Positions 30,176 through 61,947 of a DNA stretch of 64,000 nucleotides are shown one piece after another (within the stretch, counting starts at the first letter, position 1; each line of letters begins with the position of its first letter). The stretch is taken from the NCBI GenBank assembly GCA_014871385.1, contig CM026423.1, positions 5,928,967 through 5,992,966 of the forward strand, written 5' to 3'. The position numbers and the translations under genes are program-made. This DNA comes from Ceratodon purpureus. Lineage: Eukaryota; Streptophyta; Bryopsida; Pseudoditrichales; Ditrichaceae. A model generated the notes under the pieces. It had not been told where the DNA came from, searched no databases, and worked only from the letters and a program-made list of their open reading frames with translations.

Positions 30176-31814
<1,639 letters not shown>

Positions 31815-40810: not shown

Positions 40811-43800
40811 TCAACCGCTGACTTCTCCAAACCCCCAGCTTCTCCCTGTATACACAATTGACTCATCATCACAGGGGTAGAGGAAAGCAACGGCCTGCGT
40901 CAACGCCTCCAAACGGGATCTACTGACCAGTTCAGATCGTAGGGGAACCCTCCGACACCGTGTACGACCAGAATATACCTGCAACTCAACCGAATACAAA
41001 GGGCAGTCTACATGTAAAATGATGGTCAATTCAGTGTTCAAATCGCCCTCTAAGGTGTGCGAAAAAAGACGAGGGTGACCACTTACCTGTGTTGCCTCAG
41101 AGGCAACTCTTTTTTTGGAGTTTGCGGATTCGTCCTTATTTTGCGGTCGCTTGGATTGCGCCTTCTTTTCCGGGGGCGGGGACTTCAGCTTCTTTGAGGC
41201 CGCCCGTGTTGAAACTCGAAACTGGTCTGGAATTGCGGGGGGAGGGTCTTCACCAGCAGCCCCCACTGCCGCTACTATCCCTTTGACGGCGCCCACTGCC
41301 CGCACTACCGGTGCAACCCCATCACTGGGTGCACGCCTGAGGTCTGTCGCGGGCCACCGAATGAAGTACCCGATGGCCTGATTCATGGTCACTACGTCTT
41401 CATCTTCTAGTGGGCATTGGAGGTCGTGGTCGTCCTTGATGCTTGTAGTCACCTGCACGGAGAACTCGTCATCGTCTATTCTCTGGCAGTGGATCGACTC
41501 TCCTGGCATTCCGTGCAGCACTCCACAGCCAACCAATGTGGTGAAGGCGTCGTCATAGGCGCTACTCAACAACTCCACCGCCATTCCTTTGGTGAATGTC
41601 CTCTGAAACGCCAACAATGAACATACGAGAACACGGGTTTAGGGTTAACTTTCACGAATGGTTACGTTTTAGTAACGTCACTGGAGACAAGAGCGTATGT
41701 CATTAGAAACGCAAATTGAAGTCATTACATACGCGATTTTACGTCACCCTAAACACAAATACATGTCATGTCTAACGCAAATGTCTGTCAAAGAAGACGT
41801 GCTGAAGGGAGTGATTCACAGGGAAATGTAACTTCTAACTTAGTTACGACAGAGTTAATATGGAAAAAAAAGCGTGATCTACGTAGTCATCTACAACGTC
41901 AGGTGCCTACGTCATCTGGAGCCGGCTTCTCGGTGGATAGGGTGGCAATCGCAGAGACAACGTCCTGCTCGTCTGACTGAGGTGAGGAGACCTTGTCCTC
42001 CACAGGTGCAGAAACACCGGAAGTGATGTCGTGTGGAACTGGAGCTGGAGAATGTTCGTCGTCGTCTGTCTCCGACTCCGAAGCCTCCACATCCTGTTCT
42101 GGGCCCCTCTCTTCCGTGGTGGCACCTTCCTCGCGCCCATCGTGCACCATATCCTCGGCTGCATCCGCTTCCTCGATCGTCCCCGTTGTCGTGAGAGCCC
42201 CCTCATCCTGTGTTGCCTGAATACAATCTGAAATGACATCCATCTTCCTCTCTGCTTTCTCCTCCGAAGTCACCATAGGTTTGGGGTCGGCAGCATCGTC
42301 CCTTGGTATGATGTCATCCTGGGACCGCAACGGCATTGGGGGAGTCTTCGAAGAGGTTGGAGGCGCCACGACTTCCTCTACTGTGTTGCTGCTGGTCCGT
42401 TTAGGCCGGGGTCTTGCTCCAGATTTCCCCTTCTTCGACTTCTGTTTGGGCGGCACGGTCTCCACGACTCGTGGAGTAGACACCCTCGTGATGTTGGCGT
42501 ATAACTCTGTCATCATGTCCTCGATCCTCTTCAGCCTGGAGTCCTGGGCCGCACATAGAGCTTCAAGCTTTTCCATCCTCGTATCCTGAGCACCTGCAAG
42601 CTTCTGCTTCCTTGCAGCGGCGCGTTCTTCCAAGTCTCTCTGTCGCATTGCCTTCACCTCCGCAGCAACTTCCGCTTCTGACGGCTGCCGTCCAAGTCTG
42701 ATACTCTGCCACAGAAGTTTCCCACTTTGTCAACTCTATAACTCCTAGAAAACCGCAACAGTGCTCGGAAATAGTGCGCCACATGTAACATTGAACCGTT
42801 CAAATACGTTTACTAAGACACAAACATGTTACCTCCCGTCTTGGTGAAACGCAAACTCATGTCACTTGAAACGCAAGTGACGTGTCAAAGGAAACATTAT
42901 AAGAAACGCGAAGTACCGTCACTAGTAACACCCACATAAATGTAACTTCAATAACTACCGTCAGGAGAAATGCAATGTGAGGGTAGATAACGTAGAATTT
43001 TTGTTACTCGAAAGCAGAACTTCACTAGAAACGAAGACAGAGCAGCGAATGAACACTTACCAGCTAGGATAGGCGTGCAAGGGAGGTTAGTACTCAGAGA
43101 GAAGGCCGGAAAACAGCCCAGGATTTCAACATAACACGCATTCACATACTTCTACCTAGAACCGTGAACGTGGAGTCAGAATAGAATTCAGACTGGACAT
43201 TGGACTAGAATGCTACAGCGGAATATGCGACCTCAAAAAACTTACAAGCATTTGGAAAACAGAACTCACTCATGCAAACAGTTAAAGAGGGTCTCGGCTT
43301 TGAGAAAACAGTGGTCGCGTCACAATAATCATAATGTTGTGTCACAAAAAACAAAGACACACGTCATGCACAAAAAAAACGGACAAACATTAAAAATAAA
43401 ATCTCAGAAGGCTACCAAAGAGTTGAAGAGGGTCTCGGCTTCGAGAAAACAGTAGTCACGTCACACTAAGCATAATATTATGTCACAGAAAACAGAGACA
43501 CACGTCATGCTCAACATAAACTTACAAACATTAGAATCAAAATAAAATTCAGAAGGCTACCAAACAGTTAAATACGGTCTGGGCTTCGAGAAAACAATGG
43601 TCACGTCGCATTAAACATAATGTTATGTCACAGAGAACAAAGACACCCGTCATGCACAACAAAAACTTACAAACATTTAAAAAAATAAAATTCATAAGGC
43701 TACCAAACAGTTGAACAGGGTCTGGGCTTCGAGAAAACAGTGGTCACGTCAAAATAAGCATAATGTTATGTCACAGAGAACAAAGACACACGTCACGCTC

Positions 43801-46800
43801 AACAAAAACTTACAAACATTAGAATCAAAATAAAACTCAGAAGCGACCAAACAGTTAAATACGGTCTCGGCTTCGAGAGAACAATGGTCACGTCACATTA
43901 AACATAATGTTATGTCACAGAAAACAAAGACAACCGTCATGAACAACAAAAACTTACAAACAGAAGGCTACCAAACAGTTAAAGAGGGTCTCGGCTTTGA
44001 GATAACAGTGGATACGTCATGATAAACAGAATGATATGTCACAGAAAACAAAGACACACGTCACGCTCAACAGAAACTTACAAACATTAGAAAATAAGAA
44101 AATCAAAACGCAACCAAACAGTTGAAGAGGGTCTCGGCTTCGAGAAAACAGTGGTCACGTCACATTAAGCATAATGTTTTGTCACAAAAAAAATAGACAC
44201 ACGTAATGCTCAACAGAAACTTACAAACAGTAGAACCCAAAAAAAATCAGAAGGCTACCCAACAGTTACAGAGGGTCTCGGCTTTGAGAAAACAGTAGCC
44301 ACGTCCCATTAAACGTAATTTTATGTCACAAAAAACAAAGACACACGTCATGCTGAACATAAACTTACAAACATTAGAGAAAAAGAAACTGAGGAGGCTA
44401 CCAAACAGTTGGAGAAAAAGAAACTTAGAAGGGTACCAAACATTAGAGAAAAGGAAACTCAGAAGGCTACCAAACAATTGAAGAGGGTCTCGGCTTTGAG
44501 AAAATAATGGTCACGTCACAATAAACATAATGTTATGTCACAAAGAACAAAAACACAAGTCATGCCCATCAAAAACTTACAAACATTAGAGAAAATAAAA
44601 AATCAGAAGGCTACCAAACAGTTGAAGAGGGTCTCGGCTTTCAGAAAACAGTACTGACGTCACACTAAGCATATAGTTATGCCACAGAAAACAAAGACAC
44701 ACGTCATGGTCAACAAAAACTCACAAACATTAGAACCCAAAAAAAACTCAGAAGGCTACCAAACAGTTGAAGACGGTCTCGGCTTTGAGAAAACAGTAGT
44801 CACGTCACATTAAACATAGTGCTATGTCACAAAAAAGAAAGACACACCTCATGCGCAACAAAGACTTACAAACATTAGAGAAAGAAAAAACTCTGAAGGC
44901 TACCAAACAGTTGAAGAGGGTCTCGGCTTCGAGAAAACAGTAGTCACGTTACACTACGCATAAACGTAGGTCAATGGAACCAAAGACACACGTCAGGCAG
45001 AACAGAAACTTACAAACATTAAAAATAAAAAACACATTGGGCTACCAAACAGTTGAACAGGGTCTCGGCTTTGAGAAAACAGTAGTCACGTCACATTAAA
45101 CATACTGTTATGTCACAAAAAACAAAGACACACGTCATGCTCAACATAAACTTACAAACATTAGAGAAAAAGAAACTGAGAAGGCTACGAAACAGTTCAA
45201 GAGGGTCTCGGCTTCGAGAAAACAGTAGTCACGTTACACTAAGCATAAACGTAGGTCAATGGAAACAAAGACACACGTCATGCAGAACAGAAACTTACAA
45301 ACATTAACTCCTAAAAAACACATTGGGCTACCAAACAGTTGAACAGGGTCTCGGCTTTGAGAAAACAGTAGTCACGTTACACTAAGCATAAACGTAGGTC
45401 AATGGAAACAAAGACACACGTCATGCACATCAAGAACTTACAAACATCAGAGAAAAAGAAAACTAAGAAGGCTACCAAACAATTGAAGAGGGTCTCGGCT
45501 TTGAGAAAACAGTAGCCACGTCACATTAAACATAATTTTATGTCACAAAAAACAAAGACACACGTCATGCTGAACATAAACTTACAAACCTTAGAAATAA
45601 AAAACACATTGGGCTACCAAACAGTTGAAGAGGGTCTCGGCTTTGAGTAAACAGTAGTCACGTTACACTAAGCATAAACGGAGGTCAATGGAAACAAAGA
45701 CACACGTCATGCAGAACAGAAACTAACAAACATTAGAAATAAAAAACACATTGGGCTACCAAACAGTTGAGGAGGGTCTCGGCTTCGAGAAAACAGTAGT
45801 CACATTACACTAAGCATAAACGTAGGTCAATGGAAATAAAGACACACGTCATGCACATCAAGAACTTACAAACATCAGAGAAGAAGAAAACTAAGAAGGC
45901 TACCAAACAATTGAAGAGGGTCTCGGCTTTGAGAAAACAGTAGCCACGTCACATTAAACATAATTTTATGTCACAAAAAACAAAGACACAGGTCATGCTG
46001 AACATAAACTTACAAACCTTAGAAATACAAAACACATTGGGCTACCAAACAGTTGAAGAGGGTCTCGGCTTTGAGTAAACAGTAGTCACGTTACACTAAG
46101 CATAAACGGAGGTCAATGGAAACAAAGACACACGTCATGCAGGTAGGAAACTAACAAACATTAGAAATAAAAAACACATTGGGCTACCAAACAGTTGAGG
46201 AGGGTCTCGGCTTCGAGAAAACAGTAGTCACATTACACTAAGCATGAACGGAGGTGAATGGAAACAAAGACACACGTCATGCAGGTAGGAAACTTACAAA
46301 CATTAGAAATAAAAAACACATTGGGCTACCAAACAGTTGAAGAGGGTCTCGGCTTTGAGAAAACAGTAGTCACGTCACACTAAGCATATAGTTATGTCAC
46401 AGAAAACAAAGACACACGTCATGCTCAACAAAAGCTTACAAACATTAGAAGCAAAAAAAAAACTCAGAAGGCTCAACAAAAACTTACAAACATTAGAAAG
46501 GAAAAAACGCAGAAGGCTACGAAACAGTTATAGAGGGTTTCGGCTTTGAGAAAACAGTGGTCACGTCAAGTTAAACATAAAATTATGACACTGGAAACAA
46601 AGACACGCGTCATGCTCAACATAAACGTCACTGAAAACGCCGTGTCAGTAAAAGAGAACGCAAAATGGTGTCACTAGAAACACAATATAACTAGAAACGC
46701 TGTGTGAGCTGACTTTTTTTGAGAAAAGTCCCTTTTCAGTAAAAACAGTGTAAATAGGACCAAGTTACCATGTCAATTTGAAATCCATGTAGATAGTGGC

Positions 46801-49800
46801 TGTAGAAATCTGGTTGAGAGTCAAATGGACATAGTGTAGAATTCAGGGGACATGGCCCTACCTAGAGACACGACTTGTCAAATTGACTCTACGTACAGGC
46901 ACACCCTTTAGAAATTAAGGCATAACTAGGAATTAAGGAAGAAGAAAGAATTACTTCACCACACCACACAACACTGTGTGAGTGATAGTCACATTATGTA
47001 AAAAATATAAAAATAGAATTCCATTGTCTAATTGATTGTCAACTTGACTCTGAGTAGCTCACTGTTTAATTGATTCACAGATGCTCTTTGTCAAATTGAA
47101 CTATAGCTTTGATGCACAGTGTATTACTCTGTAGAATTAGAGAATCAGAATGGAAAACTGGAGCAGATTGGCCACTGTCTAATTGACAATTGAATTCAGA
47201 TTAGTTGATGCATAATGTCTAGTTATCACTGGTCAAATGGACAAGATGGTGGTTCGGTATGCATCCATGGGCATGCATACATTGTCAACTTGACTTGCAT
47301 GGACCATGTCTAATTGACTCAGTGGAGAATTGGTGAGAGTTACAGTGAATGTGGTGACTCACACTGGATACTGTCTAATTGAAATGGATACTGTCTAATT
47401 GAAATCGAAGATATTGATGGAGCAAAGTGAACAGTGGATGAGATTGTCTATTTGAACTCAGAACGAAGGAAGAGTTACTGAGTGAATAGAAAATAGAAAT
47501 TATGGAAAATAAACACAACAGTTTGTCCAATTGACATTGCATTGTTGTGAATGGGAATTATGGAGAATGAGAGTTCCATGTGAGTACTGGAACAGTGAAG
47601 TGAGTATTACTTGATAGTCTTTTAAATTAGATTGGCCATCTGAAATAGAAGACTGAGAATGACTTAGAGTTTATGGAAGCCAGATTGAGTACATTGATGG
47701 ATAAAAGTGGCAATTAATTATTAAGGAGTGATCAGCCTTAGTGATTATTAGTTCTCATTATAATAAAACTTGAATGTATTCAACTGAGCAATAGTACAGT
47801 CATTGTAGTTGAGTAATACAATTGAGAAGCATAGTTGTGATGAATGGTAGAGTTGGAGTATGATTGAATGTGAATGAGTAGACAGTGATTACATGTCTAT
47901 TTGAAATGCGCTGGATGGGAGGAAAAAGATGAAGACAAGCAAGGAGTTGCTTGAGATAAGTTAATCTATCATAACATATCCCAAAGCATCATTCATAGGC
48001 ATAAATAGGTTGAACATTAGATTCTAACCTAGTAATGAATGAACTTGCATATGCATAATAAATGCATTGTCTAATTGAACTTGGAAGGGAGTGATGGCAA
48101 TAAACCGAGAGATGGTACTTGTCAATTTGAACTCCCATTACCCTTGAACCAATTGAGAGTATGGGTTACTTGGGTTTTATGTGACTTGGGGTAATTAAGA
48201 CATTAGAGTTATAAAGTGATTCTTTTAAGGAAATACTTTGCATTCTATACATTCTTTACTTACTACAGTGACCTTTAGTTACGTTAAAAGCTAAACGAAA
48301 AGACCTATTCCCATGACTTACCACTATTTGTAAATTTCACCAATTACATTTTGGCGCCGCTGCCGGGGAATAGGTTCCGGTTAAGCGGTAGCTAAAAGTG
48401 TAGATAAAGTAAAGAATAGAAGACTCTTTGTGCTTTAAGCTAGAAGATACCTCGTGTTTCTTTAAGAATTTAAAATTTCAACTTCTTCTTAAGAAAAACT
48501 TCTTGAGCAAGTGGTTGTGAATTCTTTTAAGGACAAAGAGGAAATCTTTATAATTAGCTTTAACCTTTAAAGGAATCCTTTAAGTGAAGAAAGGGTCATA
48601 GTAAAAGTAAAACATAGATTAAGTATCGAATTAACTCAGAGAAGTGTATGGTAACAAAGTATTGTACTATACCATGGGTTAATAAAAGAACCTTTAGACT
48701 TTTGAAATGTCTTAAGATGTGAGTTTATGAATTCTCTTAAAGGTTGATTGAGTGATAGTAATTAATCTTTCTGAGATTGTGAGTAAGAGGTAGAAGATCG
48801 TAATTAGAAGATTGCGATATAGGTTTAGAGTATATGAGTTTTGATTGATGACGATCAATAGTAAATAATGTATCCATTTCCATGGGAAGTCCAACAAAAG
48901 GATATTAATCAATTCTTTGAGGGACCTTTCCTATTTGCTGCACTTTACCGAGTTTATAGGGGAGCATATTTTGGGCAAGGTTTTCAAATTTGTGGTACAC
49001 ACTCTAAATTTGATTCAAACCTTCAGAATAAATTTGACCAACTACCCATTGATATCAAAAGAATAATATTAGCAAAAATTTGGGATAATGGAACAAGGTT
49101 TAATGCTTTGATAGTTTTCAAGGGAGAATTATTTTTACAAAGCAATTTACATTTTCTATTTGCCCAATATGGGAGATTGAAAAATTTAACTTCACCTATA
49201 ATCTCTAAAGGTTGTGGAGCATGGAATGGATACAAATTAGATACCAAAACTTATATCTTTAAATACGGACCTCAGAAACTAGATAGTCAAGTCTTAATTC
49301 CAGATTTTCTATCTAGAGAATCTGATAAACCAATTTCAATTGCGTTTGGATTATTATGTCTTTAAAGACATGACAATCGAGAGTGAAACAATTATCGAAC
49401 AATTAGTCAGATTAAGACGATTGTTGATAATTTATGAGGGTATACAAAGAAACGAAGAAGCATTGATTCACCTTTTAGCTAAAGAGATAGATCAAATTAG
49501 CAAGGAAGGTGAATCAAATTCTGAGCAGAACTTCTTAATAGAAAGGTTGATTAGTGAACATAATTATCCTAGGAATTTTCAAGAGGAAGAGGTTGATGAG
49601 ATATTTGAAGTAGAACCTTTCACCTTGAATACTTGGATAATATTTTGGTTTGATACCAATAAGAGTTAGTCTTTATTCTAATTGAATGGAATAAAGAAAA
49701 TGGTAAAAGTAGAGGAGGAAAGGTTAAGGGAATTAGCCAAACTTGGGCGACAAAACTACTATAGACAATTCAGAGCACCTGTAAAACAAAACAAGATTGG

Positions 49801-52800
49801 GAGAAACCGTTTGAAGTTTATGTAGATGCATCAAATTATGCTATTGGAAGTGTTCTCAGTCAAAAGGACGCAAAAGGTCATGATCGACCTATATATTTTT
49901 CTAGTAGACAATTAAGTGCTGCTGAGAAAAATTACTCTGTAACGGAGAGAGAAGGGTTAGGAATGATATATTCAGTTCAAAAATATAGACATTATTTATT
50001 AGGTTATAAGTTCACTTTTCATGTAGATCATGATGCACTTAAATATATGGTTAATAAACCACAATTGAGTGGGAGAATAGCTAGATGGGTATTGTTACTT
50101 CAAGAATTTGATTTTACGGTTAATGTAAGGCCTGGCAAAAAACATGCCAATGCTGATTTCTTATCACGGATTAGTAAGGAAGTGAATCCAGAATCCATAG
50201 ATGATAGTTTTCCAGATGCGCATATTTTTCAAGTGGATATCATTCTAGCAGAATATGCTGATGTTATTCATTACTTGAGTACCAATACCTTCCCTCGAGA
50301 TTATACAGATAAACAAAAACAAAAATTAATATTTAAATCTCAACCATATACATTAATTGCAAAAGTTCTATATAAAAGGGGTAAAGACGGACTTTTACGG
50401 AGATGTATTAATCCAAGTGAGGTACCATTAATTCTTAAAGGTTGTCATGACGCTGCATGTGGCGGTCATTTTGCCGGAATGGTAACTGCACATAAAGCGT
50501 TACAATCCGGATATTGGTGGCCAACACTCTTTGGGGATGCACATAGATATACCAAAAAATGTGATCCATGCCAAAGAGTGGGAAAACCTACACCTTCAAA
50601 GGCAATGCCTTTAAATCCAATTTTAGCTCAAACGCCGTTTGAGAAATGGGGAATTGATTTTGTAGGACCTATAAAACCACCTAGTAGACATGGTCGAAAT
50701 AGATACATATTAATTGCAACTGAATATGTAACTAAATGGGCAGAAGCTCAACCTACGAAAACCGATGATGCTAAAACTGTTGCCAAATTTTTATATGAAA
50801 ATATTATTACAAGATTTGGATGTCCAAAAGAATTAGTAAGTGATCGGGGAACTCATTTTCTTAATGAAATAATTGAACAACTAACTGAAAAATATTCAAT
50901 TGAACATAGAAAATCTACACCGTATCATCCTCGTGCTAATGGTCAGACAGAGAAAACAAACGGTATATTATGTCGGATAATTACTAAAACTGTACAGGGT
51001 TCAAATACAGATTGGGACGCAAGAGTACCAGATGCATTATGGGCTTATCGATGTGCATTTAAAGTATCTACAAAATTTACTCCATTTCAATTAGTTTATG
51101 GTCAAGAAGCTATCTTACCAATTGAAATGGAACTCCCGTCTTTAAGAATTGCATTAGATGAACGATTAGGAGATGAAGAATCTTTAAGACATAGACTTTA
51201 TATGCTCGAAAAATTAGATGAAACGAGAGCCCAAGCATATCTTAATAATGAAGCTATTCAAAAACATCGTAAAACATATTATGATAGCAAATTGGGACCC
51301 AAAGTTTTGAATCCTAATGATTTAGTATTATTATATGATAGCCGATTTCAAAAATTTCCAGAAAAATTTAGAATGCGTTGGTTTGGACCATATCGGGTAT
51401 TAAAATCGTATCCCAATGGTTCAGTTGAACTTCAAGATTTTGCAGGAAAAATTCATGCCACAAGATATAATGGTTTTCGTTTGAAACCATACATAACTTG
51501 AGGACAAGTTCTAGATTTAAGAGAGGGGCAGTAAGGGTAAAAAATTTAAAAATTCTAAACTGTCCTACCTAAGTACTAGAAACTGTGAAATTTTGAAGAA
51601 ATTAAAAAACCAGGGATCTAAAAAATTAAGTTACAAAAAGCAAAAGTTCAACAAATTTAAATTCTGAACTTGAGAATTTTTCGAAGCAAATGGAAATTAC
51701 TAATTGACAAGTAGACACTAACTAAAATGATGAGTAAGTAGTAATTATCAGAAAAATACAATTAGTAAGTAAAAGACGGCTGATATGATTACTGGGAATG
51801 GGGGCTGGGAACATCATTACCACGTAGCATGGAAATGAGTGCCAAGATCCCACTAACTGTCAAATAGACAAAAGAGACTGGTCGAGTCGAGTAGACCACA
51901 TCATCTCCTCCAAAACTGAAACAGGAAACCTCAAACAACACGCATTCTTGAGAAACACAGAGTGCGAGGGAGTGAGGAAACGGAGGTCAAGTAGACAGAG
52001 TGTTACGCTCTGAGCGATCAGGGTTAGGAGTGGAGAGAGATAGTTGTCAAGTGGACTGAGGTTTCTTACTTGTGAGGAGATCAGAACGAGACGAAGCGAG
52101 ATACCGAGAGGACTGAGAGAAAAAGCACTTTAAGTCGAGGGTCGCATTGTTGCATTTTGTGTAACCAAGCTGTGAGAAATACTGAGCGATCCGAGAAAGA
52201 GAAAGGAGTGAACTGGAAGACCACATTGCTGCAGCAAGTGTGTGCGAGAAGATTGAGTAATCGAAGGGGGAGCAAAGGGTGTTTCAGGTTGCATACTGAG
52301 GGTGAGTTGTGTTGTTGTTGATTTCGCATACTGTTTTGTCAATTGGACAACCTGATTAGCTTTGGACAGTTGCAGATATCTTAGGTTAAGTGGACACGAT
52401 GTTGTTGAAAGGAGTGTTGCGATGATCTCGATGTTAGAGTAAGTTGGATATGATACCTTAGGTCAACTGGACCTAGAGTTTCTGATCATTGTGAGTATGT
52501 CAATTGGAAACAGTGCGACAGAAGGGGAAGACGAAGCATTGCATCTTGAGAGGCATATCTCTCGTAGTCAAGTTGACACATACATTCGGGTGAGTTTCAT
52601 TGCATCCATTCTGATTGTGTCAAGTTGATTGCATGTTGTTTTCGCATCTTCTTCTTGCATGTCCAATTGAACTGTTACTTGTGAAGAATGGTGACTGTCC
52701 AGTAGACAAAGATGTTAGGAGACACAAGACACAACTTGCCGAGAGAAAGAAAGGATAAAAGATCAAAGGAACGAAACTGAAACTTGGTGCTGTGATGCAT

Positions 52801-55800
52801 GATGATAGTAATGTAGGAAAATATCACAAACTGATTGCCGAGAGAAAGGAAGGAGAAAAACAGAAAGAATGAAGCTTAATATTTTCAATGGAATATGATT
52901 GTGAAGTAGAAAATTAGGGATAGAAGTGATTGCCGAGTGGAAGAAGTGTTTTATAGTTTTAAAGTAAGGAAATAACAAAGATAAAATTCCCGAGAGTTCA
53001 AGTAGACAGTGCCGAGAGTTTCAGGGAGAGTCAATGCCGAGAAAAATTTCAATTAGACAAAGTAAGAATTGAAGCAAACTAACTGCCGAGTGTGTAGTCT
53101 AATAGACAGAAACAAGGAACCATGGTAAACGAAGGTCAAGTTGACAGAGAAGGCAGAGGAACTGATCAAGGGAGGCCACAACCCGAAGTTGAAGGATCGG
53201 TCAAATTGACAAGGCCAATTGCTCGGCCTAAGGTGAAGGCAATGAAGAACAAGAAGTCGAAGAAGACTGTGCTTGCGGATGCAATGCAACAGGACTTGTC
53301 AAGTGGACCAAGACGTCAAATTGAACACTTGGAGTTGAAGAAGATTGACCGGGAGGCATGGCCGCAGTTTGAAGCCAACCGGGAGAACTTTGTGAAGGCA
53401 GGACTTTGGGACTTCGTGATGGTTGTCTTCGAGGATCAGGATGATGGGAGGATCAATCAATTCCTGACTTCTTCGGAGTATGGATCCAGAGGGATGGCCG
53501 TGGTGGATGGAAGAAGCGTACCTTTCAACTCGACAGCCATCTCCAAGATGTTGAAGCTGCATCAAGGAGACAACTTGTTGATGGAAGAGGTGGGCGGTAT
53601 TTCAGAGGACGATTTGACCAACGTCTTTGACAGAGCTGCCAAGACACAGAGTGGCTATAAATTGGTGAATGCGAAAGAGACGTGGAAGGAGTGGCTACTT
53701 TTCTTCAATCAGAGGATTATGCTGGCGGAGAAGGGGCCTCTGATCATGTCGAAGGAAGGAGTAGCAGCCGCAATTTACGGGTGGAATGGTGTCAAATTGA
53801 GTTGGGGAAACATTCTATTTGACAACATCAAGGTGGAGATTAGTAAGAAACACACGCGGTATCCAATCACACTCTACAGTGCGATTTACCTCTCAGAGCT
53901 GACCAAGCCATCAAGTCAAGTGGATTCAGGTGTGTCCACTGGACCGGTGAGAGTGCTTCCAGACTTGCTCAATTTGACAAGAGAACCAGAGCCTAGAGCC
54001 TCGACTCCATCATCCTCGAGAGTGAACAAGGTCAAGAAGAGGAGAGTAGAGGATAACTCCTTACCTCAATGTCTATTTGAACTGAACCCGAGGTTGGGAA
54101 GAGGAGCAAGATCAGCCAGTCAAGTAGACAACCGTGAACCTGCAAGGCAACCAGCGTTGCAGCTCACGCAGGCTGAGGTGGCTGCACAGCTCAAGGATGC
54201 ACTGGTGAGAGAAACACAGCTACGGTTGAAGATCAAAGAACTGGAGCGTACGGTGTTCAACTTGACCACTGAGAACAACCTAGCTGTGGAAGACATTCGG
54301 AGGTTGAATACACAGTTGGATAACTTGGCGGAATTGAATGAGGAATTGACGAAACCCACTGTAGCAGACATTGAGATTGACACTGGGAAGTCGTTCCAAG
54401 AGCTGTATAACGATGAGAAGCAGCACCGCATCGAACTTCAACGTCAATTTGACCAACTTAATGATGCCAAGATCGCCATTTCCAAGCTCTGCACCGAGGA
54501 GAGGAATGAGAAGAATAAGCTCAAGGCAGAATTGGAAAGCTTGAAGAAAAATCCGATGGTGAAGGTTGTCAACCCCTCGGATTATGCGACTCTAAAGACC
54601 AATAACAAATTATACCACCGTACTATCGAGATTGGTAAGAAGCAGTTGCAGGAGGCCTGGATGGAGAACAGGGCATTGAGAGGAGAACTTTGGAAGGTCG
54701 ACTTGACATCACCACCAAGTTATTCCCTTTTCCATGCATACGAATTGCAAAGGGATAACTGGTTGGCTATGGTGGGGAAAGACAGGGAATGTCTATTGGA
54801 CAGCGGTGATTTCGATGCGGTATGGGCAGCGTCTAGTAGACACGCTAATCAGCAGAATCTCATCTGTGAGATGATCGCAAGAGGCGATGTCCAGTTGACC
54901 GACCAGAAGAAGTTGTTGCTCCCCATAGGTCACTTGGGAGCTCGAGTGGTGTTATACTACACCACTCTGGAGGAGCAACTCCAGAAGAGACGTCAACTTG
55001 ACATGTCGGTGAAGAGTCACAGACTGGTGAAGATGGGCGATTCGACTAGACAGGTGGTGGATGTTGCGGAGAAGGTGCCAAGTTAGGAGCTCAAGGAGTG
55101 GACAGCAACTTTGGAGGGGCTGCTCAAGGAGTTCGACGACCGTGATAACATCCTTGTCAAGTTGTCATGTGTGCTGGAGAGGGAGACTTATGCTCAAAGG
55201 GGCGAGTTGACCACAGCACACTATGTCTACGGGATGCACAAGGTCAGGCAGCAGATCATGGACACTTTGAGGGAGTTGAAGAAGGATCACCTTTCTATCA
55301 CCAGCCATGATCTTCAAGTCGAGTTGACCTTGCCTCCACCCACATACAAGGCACCGGGGTGGCTGTCTATTCGAACACCGGTTACAGGATCCACCTTAAC
55401 AGTCAAGTACTTGGGGAATTATGCGAGTCTATTTGACAATGAAGCGGTTTTTCCGCTACCCACGTGGACTGCGATTGAGTGGCTGCTGGAGGATTACGGA
55501 CTGTCTCGAAGGGAGGAGCGGTCATGGGATTTGATCTACAAGGAGATAGTAAATGTCAATTGGACCGATGCGGCTCCTGAGGCTGTGAGGACAAATGGAC
55601 ATTTCTGCGACTGTAGAAGAAGATTCAAGTGGGCTCCAGATAGTCTAATTGACTCGGTGGAGTATAATTGGCCTCTAATCCCTGGTCAATTTGACACGGC
55701 ATGGAATTGTGCCATGGCCTATGAGGGCTTCTGGCAGATTCACCACACACACACCGACCCTGTGTGTTTCCGAGCAGCCATATTTTCCAAGTTTTTAGCT

Positions 55801-58800
55801 CGGATTTGCAGGGATTTCAAGGTGGTGGTGAATGTAAACCGTTACGATGAGAGGAGGCCGGAGTTCTTGATCAACCTCAAGCTCCGTTACCACTCAAGTC
55901 GTTGGGGGAGAATGCTGGAAGTCATGGCCATGACTCATTTTCTTTACGGGTCTAATGGATGCTTCATCAACGAATTCAGGGGAACTCGGAAGATAGCCAT
56001 TGACAACTGGCTAACCTTCCAGCATTCCAATAACACTGAATTACTTCGGAAGGATGATGAAGTAAGGAGGGAAGTGTCTAAGCTCATGGCACAGCGGATC
56101 CAGAAGGAGAGCCATTACGGTGACCAGCACCGTAATCACCACCGACGTCACCATGTCTAGTAGACAGTAGCTGCAGGGTGTGTGCAAGCTAATCTTTGTA
56201 TATAATTTTTGAGTCTAGTTGACATAGTGTCTAGTAGCCAACGCTGTAAATGTGGAACTTGCCGGGAGTCAAGTAGACAAAGAGGGGGGCTATGTGAGCT
56301 GACTTTTTTTGAGAAAAGTCCCTTTTCAGTAAAAACAGTGTAAATAGGACCAAGTTACCATGTCAATTTGAAATCCATGTAGATAGTGGCTGTAGAAATC
56401 TGGTTGAGAGTCAAATGGACATAGTGTAGAATTCAGGGGACATGGCCCTACCTAGAGACACGACTTGTCAAATTGACTCTACGTACAGGCACACCCTTTA
56501 GAAATTAAGGCATAACTAGGAATTAAGGAAGAAGAAAGAATTACTTCACCACACCACACAACACTGTGTGAGTGATAGTCACATTATGTAAAAAATATAA
56601 AAATAGAATTCCATTGTCTAATTGATTGTCAACTTGACTCTGAGTAGCTCACTGTTTAATTGATTCACAGATGCTCTTTGTCAAATTGAACTATAGCTTT
56701 GATGCACAGTGTATTACTCTGTAGAATTAGAGAATCAGAATGGAAAACTGGAGCAGATTGGCCACTGTCTAATTGACAATTGAATTCAGATTAGTTGATG
56801 CATAATGTCTAGTTATCACTGGTCAAATGGACAAGATGGTGGTTCGGTATGCATCCATGGGCATGCATACATTGTCAACTTGACTTGCATGGACCATGTC
56901 TAATTGACTCAGTGGAGAATTGGTGAGAGTTACAGTGAATGTGGTGACTCACACTGGATACTGTCTAATTGAAATGGATACTGTCTAATTGAAATCGAAG
57001 ATATTGATGGAGCAAAGTGAACAGTGGATGAGATTGTCTATTTGAACTCAGAACGAAGGAAGAGTTACTGAGTGAATAGAAAATAGAAATTATGGAAAAT
57101 AAACACAACAGTTTGTCCAATTGACATTGCATTGTTGTGAATGGGAATTATGGAGAATGAGAGTTCCATGTGAGTACTGGAACAGTGAAGTGAGTATTAC
57201 TTGATAGTCTTTTAAATTAGATTGGCCATCTGAAATAGAAGACTGAGAATGACTTAGAGTTTATGGAAGCCAGATTGAGTACATTGATGGATAAAAGTGG
57301 CAATTAATTATTAAGGAGTGATCAGCCTTAGTGATTATTAGTTCTCATTATAATAAAACTTGAATGTATTCAACTGAGCAATAGTACAGTCATTGTAGTT
57401 GAGTAATACAATTGAGAAGCATAGTTGTGATGAATGGTAGAGTTGGAGTATGATTGAATGTGAATGAGTAGACAGTGATTACATGTCTATTTGAAATGCG
57501 CTGGATGGGAGGAAAAAGATGAAGACAAGCAAGGAGTTGCTTGAGATAAGTTAATCTATCATAACATATCCCAAAGCATCATTCATAGGCATAAATAGGT
57601 TGAACATTAGATTCTAACCTAGTAATGAATGAACTTGCATATGCATAATAAATGCATTGTCTAATTGAACTTGGAAGGGAGTGATGGCAATAAACCGAGA
57701 GATGGTACTTGTCAATTTGAACTCCCATTACCCTTGAACCAATTGAGAGTATGGGTTACTTGGGTTTTATGTGACTTGGGGTAATTAAGACATTAGAGTT
57801 ATAAAGTGATTCTTTTAAGGAAATACTTTGCATTCTATACATTCTTTACTTACTACAGTGACCTTTAGTTACGTTAAAAGCTAAACGAAAAGACCTATTC
57901 CCATGACTTACCACTATTTGTAAATTTCACCAATTACACGCTGAGAGTGGTAAAGGAACTTACCAGCGCCGACACTGCTGCGATTGATTGGCTCCATGCG
58001 TGGCCATGCTTCGAAGGCCGCCCAAGTGAGATGCTCGACATCATCTGCGACTTTTCTTGGACTGCTGGCTCATCCCGCATCTCCACCAGCTTATCCCAAT
58101 GCTCTGTGGCTATATCTGGTGGCTTTGAATGTCCAAGTCTGATCAGCTTGTTGATAGCAAACTTCACCCTAGTCACGCACCTCGACATCCTCATGTTGAA
58201 CCATTTCTCACTTAGTTCAGTGCTGTCACCGTAGAACTCAAACTCTGTCCGCACTCGCTCAATCAGAGATGCCTTAGCCGCCCTCTGTTGTCCCTTCCAA
58301 CCCGGTGTTGCAGTCGGATCCAAGGCGCGTGCAAACTTCTGTAGGGCCGCGTTGAGGAGTGGTTCGTGGGATCCGACTGGCTTGCCATAGCGATCCAATT
58401 TGATTCGCATCGGCTCCTTCGGTGACCCGTCGTCTTCCTCCTCGTACCCCTCCATGTCTTCCTCCTCCTCCATGTCCTCTTCCTCGAACTCCTCCTCCAT
58501 CTCCTCATCGAATCCACCCTCCTCGGACTGAATTGCCTGCGAGCTGTGGGAGTCGCGAGGCATGCTGCGCATGGGCACCCTCCCCGATGCAACGGGGGTG
58601 CGGGAGCCCGAGGAACGTCGCCCCACAGGTGAGGAGATGTCTGATGTAGCACGCCATCGCCTCGGGGGAGTGGCGTCTTCCTCTTCGTCTTGCGATGCTG
58701 CCCTGTCCACGCCGCGGAGTCTCTTCAGAACACCTGCAGGTTTTCTCTGACCTTGTCCCTGAGACACCTTCCCACCACCCGCAACCCCTGCCTTTGACGT

Positions 58801-59628
58801 TGGTGGGCATCCTCCGCCCCCTCTCTCCATCCAGCCTGTCTCCACGCGCCGGGGCTTGCCGATGTTGCTACGGCTGCGGAGGCGGGACTTCCCTCTCGGA
58901 TCCTCCAGGTCCTCTTCCATCTCCGACCGCGAAGCGAATTCTCCTCCAAGCACCGATCGGAGAGCCGCCACCGACAGCGAATTCCTGCGACAAAGAACCT
59001 TTGGAGCACGCTGCCTCCACTGTGCAAAAACCTCGCCTTTGTCCTTCCGATTCTGACAAATGCGAAGATAGAGAAACCCTAATTGGTGAAAGCCGCTCAC
59101 CTAACTACTGAAATGACGGCCCTGTCCATAAACCCTGACAAGAATTACATGGATTTGTACCCTCAACAATTATAATGCGCTAATTGCCAATCAGAAAGTG
59201 AGCATAAACTAACAAATTGCAATACCTACTCTAACTGATGATACATGAAGACAGTGCATAGGTGGATTGGAGAGCACAGACATAGCGATTAGGGTTTAGG
59301 GTTTACTCACAGTCTTTGGAAGGGCAGTCTCCCTCGTGTGCGCTACCTCCGCTCCCTCCCGGTACGACACAGCACTCCTTTGGCGCGTGCTCCGCCTGGG
59401 TTGGAAGTCCGACTCCACTGAGGAGGATCGGCGTCTCCTCCGGCTTCGTGGTGCGGTTGGAGCACCGGAGGACCTGATCGACGAACACCCACGTGAAGGA
59501 AGCAAGTCTGTGGCGAAGTCCGGGTCAAAACCTGCGTCCTTCAATCGGAGCGCCACCTCTCTCCTGTTGGCGTCCACGATTGCATCACGGAGGACCTCGT
59601 ACGCAGGAATTAAGTTGGCTGCCGCCAT
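40811..59628 (-). CDS. CACTA tnpA-like protein gene, five exons, about 961 aa; intron 2 holds an LTR retrotransposon
   Basis: Exons are 59628-59311, 59052-57964, 42705-41911, 41602-41087 and 40978-40811. All junctions are phase 0 with GT-AG borders (donors GTGAGT, GTAAGT, GTAGGC, GTAAGT). Exon 1 starts MAAANLIPAYEVL and is Arg/Ser-rich. Exon 2 has a long Glu/Asp-rich tract, then a conserved block with KLDRYGKPVGSHEPLLNAAL, MRMSRCVTRVKFAINKLI and EKSQMMSSISLGRPSKHG, like the Ptta/En/Spm plant transposase region. Exon 3 starts with a charged coiled-coil-like helix (EVAAEVKAMRQRDLEERAAA). Exon 4 has a DUF8039-like segment ending MNQAIGYFIRWPATDL, typical of CACTA proteins. Such proteins bind subterminal repeats. 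The C-terminus is less sure: intron 4 is also open, and a +1 frame could extend to about 40,749. No TNP2 catalytic transposase is visible. Confidence 0.65.
43230..46640. repeat. tandem array of about 23 copies of a 143-bp unit (left array)
   Basis: The phrase GTCTCGGCTT recurs at 43291, 43432, 43577, 43720, 43864, 43988, 44131, 44275, 44487, 44631, 44776, 44920, 45062, 45205, 45348, 45492, 45634, 45776, 45920, 46062, 46204, 46346 and 46537. Spacing is mostly 141-145 bp, with one 124-bp unit and two longer intervals. Each unit carries GAGAAAACAGT, CACGTCAC, ACACACGTCATG and ACTTACAAACATT. At least two variants alternate (TAATGTTATGTCACA versus TAAACGTAGGTCAATGG). The array lies in intron 2 of the CACTA gene. 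Confidence 0.95.
46703..48348 (+). repeat. 5' LTR, 1,646 bp
   Basis: It starts TGTGAGCTGAC and ends CCAATTACA, and has the same length as the 3' LTR. It is studded with the GTC...GAC dyad (about 17 instances, for example near 46876, 47172, 47282, 47302 and 47524). Confidence 0.97.
48352..48369 (+). promoter_or_regulatory. primer-binding site, tRNA-Asp type
   Basis: TGGCGCCGCTGCCGGGGA lies 3 bases after the 5' LTR. It differs at one base from the tRNA-Asp-complementary site known for Tat/Athila-type elements. Confidence 0.85.
48370..48867 (+). other. retrotransposon 5' leader
   Basis: Non-coding leader between the primer site and the first ORF. No GTC...GAC dyads were seen here. Confidence 0.6.
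48868..49365 (+). CDS. retrotransposon ORF of unknown function, 165 aa
   Basis: The first ORF after the primer site starts MYPFPWEVQQKDINQFF. It is rich in Phe, Tyr and Gly and shows no zinc knuckle, protease or polymerase motif. It occupies the position of gag but does not resemble a gag I know. It overlaps the next ORF in another frame. It may be a relic of the region removed by the internal deletion. Confidence 0.5.
   Translation: MYPFPWEVQQKDINQFFEGPFLFAALYRVYRGAYFGQGFQICGTHSKFDSNLQNKFDQLPIDIKRIILAKIWDNGTRFNALIVFKGELFLQSNLHFLFAQYGRLKNLTSPIISKGCGAWNGYKLDTKTYIFKYGPQKLDSQVLIPDFLSRESDKPISIAFGLLCL
49340..49669 (+). CDS. retrotransposon small ORF, 109 aa, unknown
   Basis: It overlaps the end of the 165-aa ORF by 26 bp in a different frame. 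The likely real start is the internal MTIESETIIEQLVRLRRLL, a charged, helix-forming segment that could be a coiled coil, followed by an acidic stretch (FQEEEVDEIFEVEPF). No catalytic motif. It could be a small structural or accessory protein, or a fragment of gag. Confidence 0.4.
   Translation: MRLDYYVFKDMTIESETIIEQLVRLRRLLIIYEGIQRNEEALIHLLAKEIDQISKEGESNSEQNFLIERLISEHNYPRNFQEEEVDEIFEVEPFTLNTWIIFWFDTNKS
49771..51501 (+). CDS. RNase H-integrase polyprotein fragment (reverse transcriptase absent)
   Basis: The open frame enters after a stop near 49,770; its first ATG is at 49,963, within the RNase H domain. RNase H begins near 49,800 with KPFEVYVDASNYAIGSVLSQ and continues through YFSSRQLSAAEKNYSVTERE and the HADALSR-like HANADFLSRI. 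Integrase follows: an H-H-C-C zinc finger (CHDAACGGH to CDPCQ), the catalytic D in GIDFVGP, D in LVSDRGTHF and E in NGQTEKTNG, then the GPYRV C-terminal module. There is no chromodomain. The polymerase YxDD box and protease are absent because the sequence joins unrelated upstream DNA just before RNase H. Codon use is AT-rich, unlike the accessory ORF downstream. Confidence 0.9.
   Translation, partial: QSTCKTKQDWEKPFEVYVDASNYAIGSVLSQKDAKGHDRPIYFSSRQLSAAEKNYSVTEREGLGMIYSVQKYRHYLLGYKFTFHVDHDALKYMVNKPQLSGRIARWVLLLQEFDFTVNVRPGKKHANADFLSRISKEVNPESIDDSFPDAHIFQVDIILAEYADVIHYLSTNTFPRDYTDKQKQKLIFKSQPYTLIAKVLYKRGKDGLLRRCINPSEVPLILKGCHDAACGGHFAGMVTAHKALQSGYWWPTLFGDAHRYTKKCDPCQRVGKPTPSKAMPLNPILAQTPFEKWGIDFVGPIKPPSRHGRNRYILIATEYVTKWAEAQPTKTDDAKTVAKFLYENIITRFGCPKELVSDRGTHFLNEIIEQLTEKYSIEHRKSTPYHPRANGQTEKTNGILCRIITKTVQGSNTDWDARVPDALWAYRCAFKVSTKFTPFQLVYGQEAILPIEMELPSLRIALDERLGDEESLRHRLYMLEKLDETRAQAYLNNEAIQKHRKTYYDSKLGPKVLNPNDLVLLYDSRFQKFPEKFRMRWFGPYRVLKSYPNGSVELQDFAGKIHATRYNGFRLKPYIT
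51502..53121 (+). other. non-coding spacer between integrase and accessory ORF, rich in GTC...GAC dyads
   Basis: About 1.6 kb with no long ORF on the sense strand. From about 51,700 the gapped dyad occurs repeatedly (for example near 51705, 51850, 51985, 52045, 52335, 52496, 52565, 52695 and 53095). It may serve as the leader or promoter for the accessory ORF. Confidence 0.6.
53122..55086 (+). CDS. retrotransposon accessory ORF, first part (654 aa), plant-transposon-protein-like domain plus coiled coil
   Basis: The ORF lies in sense orientation between integrase and the 3' LTR. After a basic N-terminus (KAMKNKKSKKT) comes a globular region, residues about 70-260, with DDGRINQFLTSSEYGSRG, VDGRSVPFNSTAISKML and KHTRYPITLYSAIYLSELT. 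This resembles the uncharacterised 'putative plant transposon protein' domain found in gypsy-type elements. Residues about 345-480 are a strong predicted coiled coil (repeated Leu/Glu heptads). The frame ends at TAG (55,084-55,086) and stays open for another 357 codons. Base composition is more GC-rich than the integrase ORF. Function unknown. Confidence 0.7.
   Translation: MVNEGQVDREGRGTDQGRPQPEVEGSVKLTRPIARPKVKAMKNKKSKKTVLADAMQQDLSSGPRRQIEHLELKKIDREAWPQFEANRENFVKAGLWDFVMVVFEDQDDGRINQFLTSSEYGSRGMAVVDGRSVPFNSTAISKMLKLHQGDNLLMEEVGGISEDDLTNVFDRAAKTQSGYKLVNAKETWKEWLLFFNQRIMLAEKGPLIMSKEGVAAAIYGWNGVKLSWGNILFDNIKVEISKKHTRYPITLYSAIYLSELTKPSSQVDSGVSTGPVRVLPDLLNLTREPEPRASTPSSSRVNKVKKRRVEDNSLPQCLFELNPRLGRGARSASQVDNREPARQPALQLTQAEVAAQLKDALVRETQLRLKIKELERTVFNLTTENNLAVEDIRRLNTQLDNLAELNEELTKPTVADIEIDTGKSFQELYNDEKQHRIELQRQFDQLNDAKIAISKLCTEERNEKNKLKAELESLKKNPMVKVVNPSDYATLKTNNKLYHRTIEIGKKQLQEAWMENRALRGELWKVDLTSPPSYSLFHAYELQRDNWLAMVGKDRECLLDSGDFDAVWAASSRHANQQNLICEMIARGDVQLTDQKKLLLPIGHLGARVVLYYTTLEEQLQKRRQLDMSVKSHRLVKMGDSTRQVVDVAEKVPS
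55111..56160 (+). CDS. retrotransposon accessory ORF, second part (349 aa), same frame after a TAG codon
   Basis: It is in the same frame as the 654-aa ORF; only the TAG and eight codons separate the two. Together they would be a protein of about 1,011 aa. It is Trp/Tyr/His-rich (NWTDAAPEAVRTNG, YNWPLIPGQFDTAWNC, RYHSSRWGRMLEVMAMTHF) and ends in a basic His/Arg tail. No family recognised. Either it is the C-terminal half of one protein interrupted by a recent nonsense mutation, or it is reached by stop readthrough. The following bases (GAGCTC) do not match the known leaky CARYYA context. Confidence 0.6.
   Translation: MEGLLKEFDDRDNILVKLSCVLERETYAQRGELTTAHYVYGMHKVRQQIMDTLRELKKDHLSITSHDLQVELTLPPPTYKAPGWLSIRTPVTGSTLTVKYLGNYASLFDNEAVFPLPTWTAIEWLLEDYGLSRREERSWDLIYKEIVNVNWTDAAPEAVRTNGHFCDCRRRFKWAPDSLIDSVEYNWPLIPGQFDTAWNCAMAYEGFWQIHHTHTDPVCFRAAIFSKFLARICRDFKVVVNVNRYDERRPEFLINLKLRYHSSRWGRMLEVMAMTHFLYGSNGCFINEFRGTRKIAIDNWLTFQHSNNTELLRKDDEVRREVSKLMAQRIQKESHYGDQHRNHHRRHHV
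56278..56290 (+). promoter_or_regulatory. polypurine tract
   Basis: AAAGAGGGGGG lies just before the 3' LTR, with only a few bases between. This is the expected plus-strand priming site. Confidence 0.8.
56293..57938 (+). repeat. 3' LTR, 1,646 bp
   Basis: Same length as the 5' LTR and without a noticed difference. It is followed by the target duplication CGCTG. Confidence 0.97.
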
Positions 59629-60439: not shown

Positions 60440-61935
60440 GTACCAGTTTTTGTTGAGCATGACGTGTGTCACTGAAGTTGATGACATAACATTATGCTTA
60501 GTGTGACGTGACTACTGTTTTCTCATAGCCGAGACCCTCTTTAACTGTTTCGTAGCCTTCTGATTTTTTATTCTTGATGTTTGTAAGGTTTTGTAGCTCT
60601 TGACGGGTTTTTTTTTTTTTTTGTAACATAACATTATGTTTATTATGAGGTATCCACTGTTTTCTCAAAGCCGAGACCCTCTTCAACTGTTTCGTAGCCC
60701 AATGTGTTTTTTATATTTTTAAATGTTTGTAAGTTCTTGATGTGCATGACGTGTGTCTTTGTTTCCATTGACCTACGTTTATGCTTAGTGTAACGTGACT
60801 ACTGTTTTCTCAAAGCCGAGACCCTCTTCAACTGTTTGGTAGCCCAATGTGTTTTTTATTTTTAATCTTCCTAAGTTTCCTACCTGGCTGACGTGTGTCT
60901 TTGTTTCCATTGACCTACGTTTATGCTTAGTGTAACGTGACTACTGTTTTCTCAAAGCGGAGACCCTCCTCAACTGTTTGGTAGCCCAATGTGTTTTTTA
61001 TTTTTAATGTTTGTAAGTTTCCTACCTGCATGACGTGTGTCTTTGTTTCCATTGACCTCCGTTTATGCTTAGTGTAACGTGACTACTGTTTACTCAAAGC
61101 CGAGACCCTCTTCAACTGTTTGGTAGCCCAATGTGTTTTTTATTTCTAAGGTTTGTAAGTTTATGTTCAGCATGACGTGTGTCTTTGTTTTTTGTGACAT
61201 AAAATTATGTTTAATGTGACGTGGCTACTGTTTTCTCAAAGCCGAGACCCTCTTCAATTGTTTGGTAGCCTTCTTAGTTTTCTTTTTCTCTGATGTTTGT
61301 AAGTTCTTGATGTGCATGACGTGTGTCTTTGTTTCCATTGACCTACGTTTATGCTTAGTGTAACGTGACTACTGTTTTCTCAAAGCCGAGACCCTCTTCA
61401 ATTGTTTGGTAGCCTTCTTAGTTTTCTTTTTCTCTGATGTTTGTAAGTTTTTGATGTGCATGACTTGTGTCTTTGTTCTTTGTGACATAACATTATGTTT
61501 ATTGTCACGTGACCATTATTTTCTCAAAGCCGAGACCCTCTTCAACTGTTTGGTAGCCTTCTGATTTTTATATTTTTAAATGTTTGTGAGTTTTTGTTGT
61601 GCAGGACGTGTGTCTTTATTTTTTGTGACAAAACATTATGCTTATTTTGACGTGACCACTGTTTTCTCAAAGCCAAGACCCTCTTCAATTCTTTGGTAGC
61701 CTTCTGATTTTTATTTTTTTAAATGTTTGTGAGTTTTTGTTGTGCAGGACCTGTGTCTTGTTTTCTGTGACAAAACATTATGTTTATTGTGACGTGACCA
61801 CTGTTTTCTGGAAGCCGATACCCTCTTCAACTGTTTTGTAGGATTCTCAGTTTTTTATTCTTAATTTTTGTAAGTTTTTGTTGTGCATGACGTGTGTCTT
61901 TGTTTTGTGTGACATAACATTATGTTTAATGCGAC
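60440..61935. repeat. tandem array of ten 143-bp units (right array), inverted relative to the left array
   Basis: The reverse complement of the left-array unit recurs with GAGACCCTCTTC or variants at 60531, 60673, 60818, 60960, 61102, 61244, 61388, 61532, 61675 and 61817. The same two unit variants are present. The inverted orientation of the two arrays matches opposite subterminal parts of one DNA transposon. Confidence 0.95.
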
Positions 61936-61947
61936 GTGACTAATGTG

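Follow-up and report, generated by a model that had tools for sequence, protein, structure and literature searches.

The 64-kb window of the Ceratodon purpureus genome analysed here (C3:5928967-5992966) contains a long terminal repeat (LTR) retrotransposon with both ends present (positions 46703-57938, plus strand, as for all features of the element below), in which an 11-bp palindrome, GTCNANTNGAC, recurs many times. Altogether we counted 45 exact matches to GTCNANTNGAC across the window; all but one (44, or 36 unique sites when one LTR is counted) fall within the retrotransposon. The flanks contain one exact site in 46.7 kb on the left and none in 6 kb on the right. The recurring dyad reported in the initial annotation is therefore real, with 44 exact copies in the element, but its restriction of base 4 to A or T is not borne out, as all four bases occur there over the 36 sites (A 20, T 9, C 4, G 3); bases 4, 6 and 8 of the motif are free.

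The element is bordered by a target site duplication read from the sequence, CGCTG (46698-46702, with its partner at 57939-57943). The 5' LTR (46703-48348, 1646 bp) carries eight exact and nine one-mismatch sites, and all eight exact sites lie in its first half, at 46820-47535; the 3' LTR (56293-57938) has the same eight exact sites. The two LTRs are identical over the 1645 bases compared, which indicates a recent insertion. A putative primer binding site at 48352-48371, starting TGGCGCCGCTGCCGGGGA, resembles a tRNA end, which may be that of tRNA-Asp. The leader with two small open reading frames (ORFs; 48349-49764) has neither exact nor one-mismatch sites, and the following RNase H-integrase ORF (49765-51501, 578 amino acids) has no exact and two one-mismatch sites. 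Pfam matches for the latter ORF are RT_RNaseH, RT_RNaseH_2, Integrase_H2C2 and rve, with no chromodomain called, and an additional CBM65_1 row (E 0.056) was taken as a chance match. Neither gag nor protease nor reverse transcriptase could be identified in the window copy; since many relatives have a single frame of about 2190 amino acids in place of the RNase H-integrase ORF, these parts seem to have been deleted from it.

The remaining sites are found between the integrase and the 3' LTR. The non-coding stretch at 51502-53097 contains eight exact sites and the start of a ninth at 53097. It is followed by an accessory frame (53098-56160) broken by a single in-frame stop, TAG, at 55084-55086. 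The first part of this accessory ORF (53098-55086, 662 amino acids, stop to stop) includes 11 exact sites in all three codon phases, and the second part in the same frame (55087-56160, 357 amino acids) includes five, with another site at 56155 overrunning its end. Two further exact sites lie inside the 3' non-coding stretch with the polypurine tract (56161-56292), one of which, at 56268-56278, directly adjoins the tract AAAGAGGGGGG. In total, 28 exact sites are found in 51502-56292, 26 of them wholly within the scored segments and two spanning segment borders; no tandem array was found in 48349-56292. The corresponding densities per kb are 4.9 in the LTR, 5.0 in the non-coding stretch, 5.5 in the first accessory part and 4.7 in the second, with zero in the leader and the RNase H-integrase ORF.

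When up to one mismatch was allowed, 17 sites were obtained per LTR, 53 in 51700-56280, two in the RNase H-integrase ORF and none in the leader. The counts given earlier, about 17 per LTR and about 45 in 51.7-56.28 kb, are close to these tallies. The same annotation described 48.35-51.69 kb as free of sites, which holds for exact sites and for the leader, but not for the two one-mismatch sites in the RNase H-integrase ORF. The motif-rich part of the element has 34 one-mismatch sites, as compared to a mean of 1.9 in ten mononucleotide shuffles, and 26 of the 34 one-mismatch sites of the window element deviate at the outermost base.

Several other features of the locus were noted. The LTR (46703-48347) is strongly CpG-poor, with an observed/expected ratio of 0.18, and the ratios in the leader, the RNase H-integrase ORF, 51502-53097 and the accessory ORF are 0.53-0.74. 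Arrays of a 142-bp repeat at 43275-46473 and 60482-61946 lie in inverted orientation on either side of the element, with about 79-85% identity when one is reverse-complemented. The arrangement looks like insertion of the element into a larger unit bounded by such inverted arrays. A minus-strand open frame of 388 amino acids (57934-59100) adjoins the 3' LTR and has no Pfam match at E 0.1. A perfect TCTA array of 97 copies occupies 31427-31814.

Shuffle controls and variation among copies

Chance or base composition is ruled out as a source of the motif by dinucleotide shuffles (500 per segment), which gave maxima of 1-2 sites against the observed 8 in the LTR, 8 in the non-coding stretch and 16 in the accessory frame. 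Protein coding is ruled out as well. The exact sites in 53098-55083 fall into codon phases 0, 1 and 2 with counts of 3, 5 and 3; the positions that had been cited as evidence of this phase spread were correct, with 53315 being a one-mismatch site. Synonymous-codon shuffles (2000 each) yielded a mean of 0.62 and a maximum of 4 sites in the first accessory part (11 observed), and a mean of 0.51 and a maximum of 3 in the second (5 observed). Similarly, for the two coding parts of L062, a relative of the element at C1:9941001-9949000, such shuffles gave a mean of 0.80 (maximum 6) against 10 sites and a mean of 0.13 (maximum 2) against 4. The earlier proposal that coding does not explain the sites thus holds, and neither of the two shuffle types that it called for reproduces the site counts.

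A genome-wide search with the accessory protein gave at least 72 matches (67 of 114 candidates scored), including 47 near-full-length copies with 82-100% identity over almost all of the query; in 30 of these 47 the match is stop-free and the accessory frame is open over 1019-1020 amino acids. The motif proved to be present in related copies, with 27-33 exact sites in each of 30 accessory loci taken from the 47 (about 5 kb each, including that of the window). Likewise, in 30 LTR loci the matched first part contains 7-10 sites and the following 1500 bp contain none.

For the analysis of variation we aligned 29 copies in one orientation, after dropping L015 as a likely duplicate of L014, and scored polymorphism among the 28 copies other than that of the window. 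The polymorphic fraction is 0.062 for the motif core (240 positions), 0.211 for the free motif bases (90) and 0.224 for other positions (4656). The trinucleotide-matched expectation for the core is 0.220, and none of 5000 resamples was as low as the observed value. This deficit is also exhibited at silent positions. At core third codon positions, 2 of 45 are polymorphic, as compared to 0.363 for trinucleotide-matched positions and 0.344 for the same amino acids elsewhere, while free third codon positions within the motif are polymorphic at 8 of 17. Strictly fourfold sites, with small numbers, show 0.118 of 17 in the core and 0.371 of 388 elsewhere. For the LTRs, 30 out of the 40 scored were compared, among them the two of the window, and 3 of 64 core bases are polymorphic against a matched value of 0.231. 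With variation in the core far below that of free and other bases, the sites are under purifying selection at the nucleotide level. Together with the shuffles, the core polymorphism strongly supports the initial idea of selection for a nucleic-acid-binding code.

Distribution across the genome and related lineages

Genome-wide counts were made over 362.5 Mb. The motif occurs 6193 times, compared to 3757 for the same pattern read backwards, and the excess is much larger for clustered sites, with 593 motif pairs against 2 for the control pattern and 53 triples against 0. The 50 pairs listed out of 593 are all on C1 and belong to family A (34), the L062 element (5) and a third locus, L065 (11). 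Fifteen listed triples on C3, C6, C7 and C10 coincide with no element-search match; 11 of the 15 are exactly 90 bp, and those on C3 lie at 20534129-20534722.

Compared with the accessory protein of the window element, that of L062 shows 38% identity over the first part and 58% over what aligns of the second, and other genome matches to its first part are all at or below 49% identity. Its 24 exact sites are, every one, downstream of pol, and its LTR (655 bp compared) aligns to the window LTR only at the start. An insertion of about 740 bp (L062 1295-2034) splits the L062 integrase frame relative to the window. The positions of individual sites are poorly conserved between the two elements: only 5 of 16 window coding sites stand at the same aligned place in L062, and, among the 14 coding sites of L062 that were compared, 9 lack an exact counterpart in the window copy, with three of the unmatched places differing by one core base. 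Having so few places in common indicates that density is kept while positions turn over. At the site adjoining the polypurine tract, the aligned L062 stretch carries a site too.

The third locus, L065, has 39 sites in 3.5 kb, most of them tandemly arrayed, and its sequence aligns to neither the window element nor L062. The array (L065 1498-2614) consists of motif-bearing units with sites mostly 25-34 bp apart. L065 immediately adjoins a stretch that shares 69% identity with the L062 LTR, and on this basis it probably represents the body of a related LTR.

The degree of similarity to the window element differs between pol and the accessory protein. The RNase H-integrase identity is 92-95% for L062, as compared to 73%, 74% and 76% for three motif-poor lineages (L064, L063 and one at C1:763 kb, respectively). 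For the C-terminal accessory piece the respective identities are 60% and 51%, 43% and 50%, so that the lead of L062 over these lineages is large in pol but modest in the accessory protein. The window element and L062 are continuously similar at the DNA level up to about 51.53 kb, just upstream of the first site at 51859. Given the unequal identities and this end point, pol may have moved between families, and the LTR, accessory frame and motif may have travelled together.

Candidate binding protein and rival explanations

The motif is symmetric, and its centre shows a uniform base usage (A 32, C 28, G 28, T 32 among the 120 folded half-sites that the 60 exact sites in the window copy plus L062 provide). 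Bases 4 and 8 are complementary in 21 of these 60 sites, against a shuffled mean of 22.3 (standard deviation 3.1), so there is no covariation, and an RNA hairpin was rejected on this ground. Taken together, these properties of the sequence favour recognition by a dimer on DNA over an RNA hairpin.

In the explanation to which we give about an even chance, GTCNANTNGAC would be the site of a dimeric DNA-binding protein, likeliest the element's own accessory protein, that activates the LTR and/or counters silencing. A sequence-specific dimer would recognise GTCNANTNGAC on DNA, with the sites having built up across the LTRs and the 3' third and being maintained there by selection. The accessory protein is the first candidate for the binder because it has the same distribution as the motif in family A and L062. 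It would coat DNA copies that bear the code, and the coating would raise LTR transcription and/or prevent silencing, as VANC does for VANDAL. A broader version, which we hold somewhat less firmly, is a self-recognition code in which the accessory protein reads the palindrome in the LTR and the coding 3' third, as a module inherited apart from an exchanged gag-pol. If so, relatives with a reader-like protein and no code would mean that the code was gained in one lineage.

Several observations weigh against this explanation. L064, of the same accessory family (28% overall identity), has no sites in 7 kb, and L063, another accessory relative, has one in 6 kb; L063 is a broken copy in which the motif may have decayed. 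No listed site falls in C1:672,082-915,459 despite an accessory relative at 766-769 kb with a frame of 1061 amino acids, where about 2-3 sites would be expected from background and about 40 from a family A element. A different dyad was sought in the motif-poor L063 and L064, and no other enriched dyad stood out in either. Such motif-free relatives imply that binding arose in the motif-bearing lineages or that the binder is something else. In the accessory protein, no Pfam DNA-binding domain was found, and a rough heptad score for a coiled coil is within the shuffle range. As for variation, the free motif bases of the LTR also vary little (0.125 of 24 against 0.220 for other bases), and in the non-coding 51598-53097 the fractions are 0.208 of 24 for free bases, 0.138 of 65 for the core and 0.348 for other positions.

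The first part of the accessory protein carries clusters of basic residues, and the second has a Cys/His-containing region conserved in four relatives. Three of five accessory pieces match Transposase_32 (PF20167) weakly (E 0.0035-0.019, 15-18 bits against a cut-off of 45); none of the five matches the Athila ORF1 Pfam domain. A Pfam scan of the first part gave Mod_r (E 0.0023, one member), Transposase_32 (0.025, one member) and five weaker matches, and a PDB search only five rows at E 0.14-0.98. For the C-terminal region, a Pfam profile search returned DUF6270 (E 0.026) and STI1-HOP_DP (E 0.13), one member each, and a PDB profile search returned no row. Accessory relatives were sought in viral contigs and none were found.

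The palindrome could instead be bound by a host transcription factor, with the sites multiplied for strong transcription in certain cells and the accessory protein unrelated to them. The confinement of the LTR sites to its first half, the place expected for enhancers, and the existence of accessory relatives without the motif agree with this, as does the sequence TTGAC in 65 of 120 half-sites. The half-sites do not match the W-box, however: TTGAC[CT] is found in just 32 of 120, so that a WRKY W-box cluster was rejected and the WRKY alternative raised in the initial annotation is weak. Moreover, the 3' coding densities equal that of the LTR and would be unneeded for promoter activation, and the 50 listed pairs (of 593) are all within this element group. 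We therefore consider a host activator unlikely, at perhaps half the standing of an element-encoded dimer. The sites could also work on RNA or complementary DNA (cDNA), with Gag or the accessory protein reading them, for instance, as signals for packaging or dimerisation, which would give the same selection at silent coding sites. The site abutting the polypurine tract, present in the window copy and in the aligned L062 stretch, fits such a role, and the commonest one-mismatch class of L062 includes wobble-compatible changes (8 of 19). On the other hand, the window's commonest one-mismatch change breaks the outer pair rather than wobbling (19 of 34), bases 4 and 8 do not covary, and the leader and RNase H-integrase RNA is without an exact site, which makes an RNA or cDNA role improbable. 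Repeated palindromes could, lastly, draw a host repressor, the sites being targets of a silencing factor or a mutational by-product. Harmful sites should decay in successful copies, whereas the core bases vary less than matched ones, and we regard this possibility as very remote.

Comparison with known systems

VANDALs are Mutator-like DNA transposons, whereas the window element is an LTR retrotransposon with LTRs, RNase H and integrase. VANDAL21 and VANDAL6, with their VANC anti-silencing proteins, are described in the available text as having a short motif at high density in one family, and the VANC21 motif YAGTATTAY as mainly non-coding, often in tandem repeats and in one orientation (PMC5735166, PMC10398659). 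As in that system, a short dense motif is enriched in one group here (by the 50 of 593 pairs assigned; the 15 listed triples coincide with none of the element matches), and tandem growth of motif-bearing units, as described there for VANC targets, is seen in L065 only. Unlike the VANC21 motif as described in these excerpts, the motif studied here is a palindrome, dispersed and present in coding sequence too, where the accessory ORF fully contains 16 exact sites, in all phases. The likeness to VANDAL and VANC drawn in the initial annotation therefore provides a fair working model, while related accessory proteins in motif-free lineages weigh against its simplest version. In Drosophila gypsy, about a dozen Su(Hw) sites in one untranslated stretch are bound by a host insulator protein. 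That cluster, too, is a set of motifs within an LTR retrotransposon, although the sites here, whose binding is presumed, also run throughout coding sequence.

Among plant Ty3/gypsy elements, the OTA (Athila/Tat) group is reported in the sections available to carry an extra ORF (PMC6317226, PMC11728184), with Transposase_32 (PF20167) given for that of sunflower Athila (PMC11728184). The window element resembles OTA so described in its long region from integrase to 3' LTR with a forward extra ORF, and its RNase H and integrase are of gypsy type, no chromodomain having been called; some accessory pieces show a weak, below-cut-off similarity to the sunflower domain. No dispersed palindrome code is described in those accounts, and the window copy is without a reverse transcriptase for lineage placement. 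In the available part of its source, Retand is presented as having antisense TRP28 ORFs and tandem repeats after pol, in flowering plants only (PMC11963269). On predictions alone, its extra ORF is proposed there to act as a DNA-binding regulator of the element, which parallels our candidate; in contrast to those antisense ORFs and tandem arrays, the sites here are dispersed and under measured selection. The Phygy lineage is described, in the passage available, as short, with a polyprotein across almost the entire internal part. A 'DOWN' motif is linked with MAIN/MAIL1, in an account that does not spell it out (PMC7156037). A gypsy-related domain in host silencing proteins is also discussed in the accessible portion of one study (PMC5418596), so that extra-ORF domains and silencing appear to have met before; Pfam scans of the element proteins revealed no similarity to that domain at the thresholds used. 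The motif spellings were not found in open-licence literature.

Plant Ty3/gypsy elements often carry extra ORFs; according to the available text, whether these are functional is an open question (PMC6317226). A selected, countable target motif in and around an extra ORF makes its function directly testable by a binding assay. Our results suggest a new case, an LTR retrotransposon with motif arrays for self-recognition that lie partly in its coding sequence. They also provide an example of regulatory selection overlaid on coding sequence and measurable at silent sites. If the proposed recognition is true, sequence-specific self-marking would reach beyond DNA transposons to LTR retrotransposons as well.

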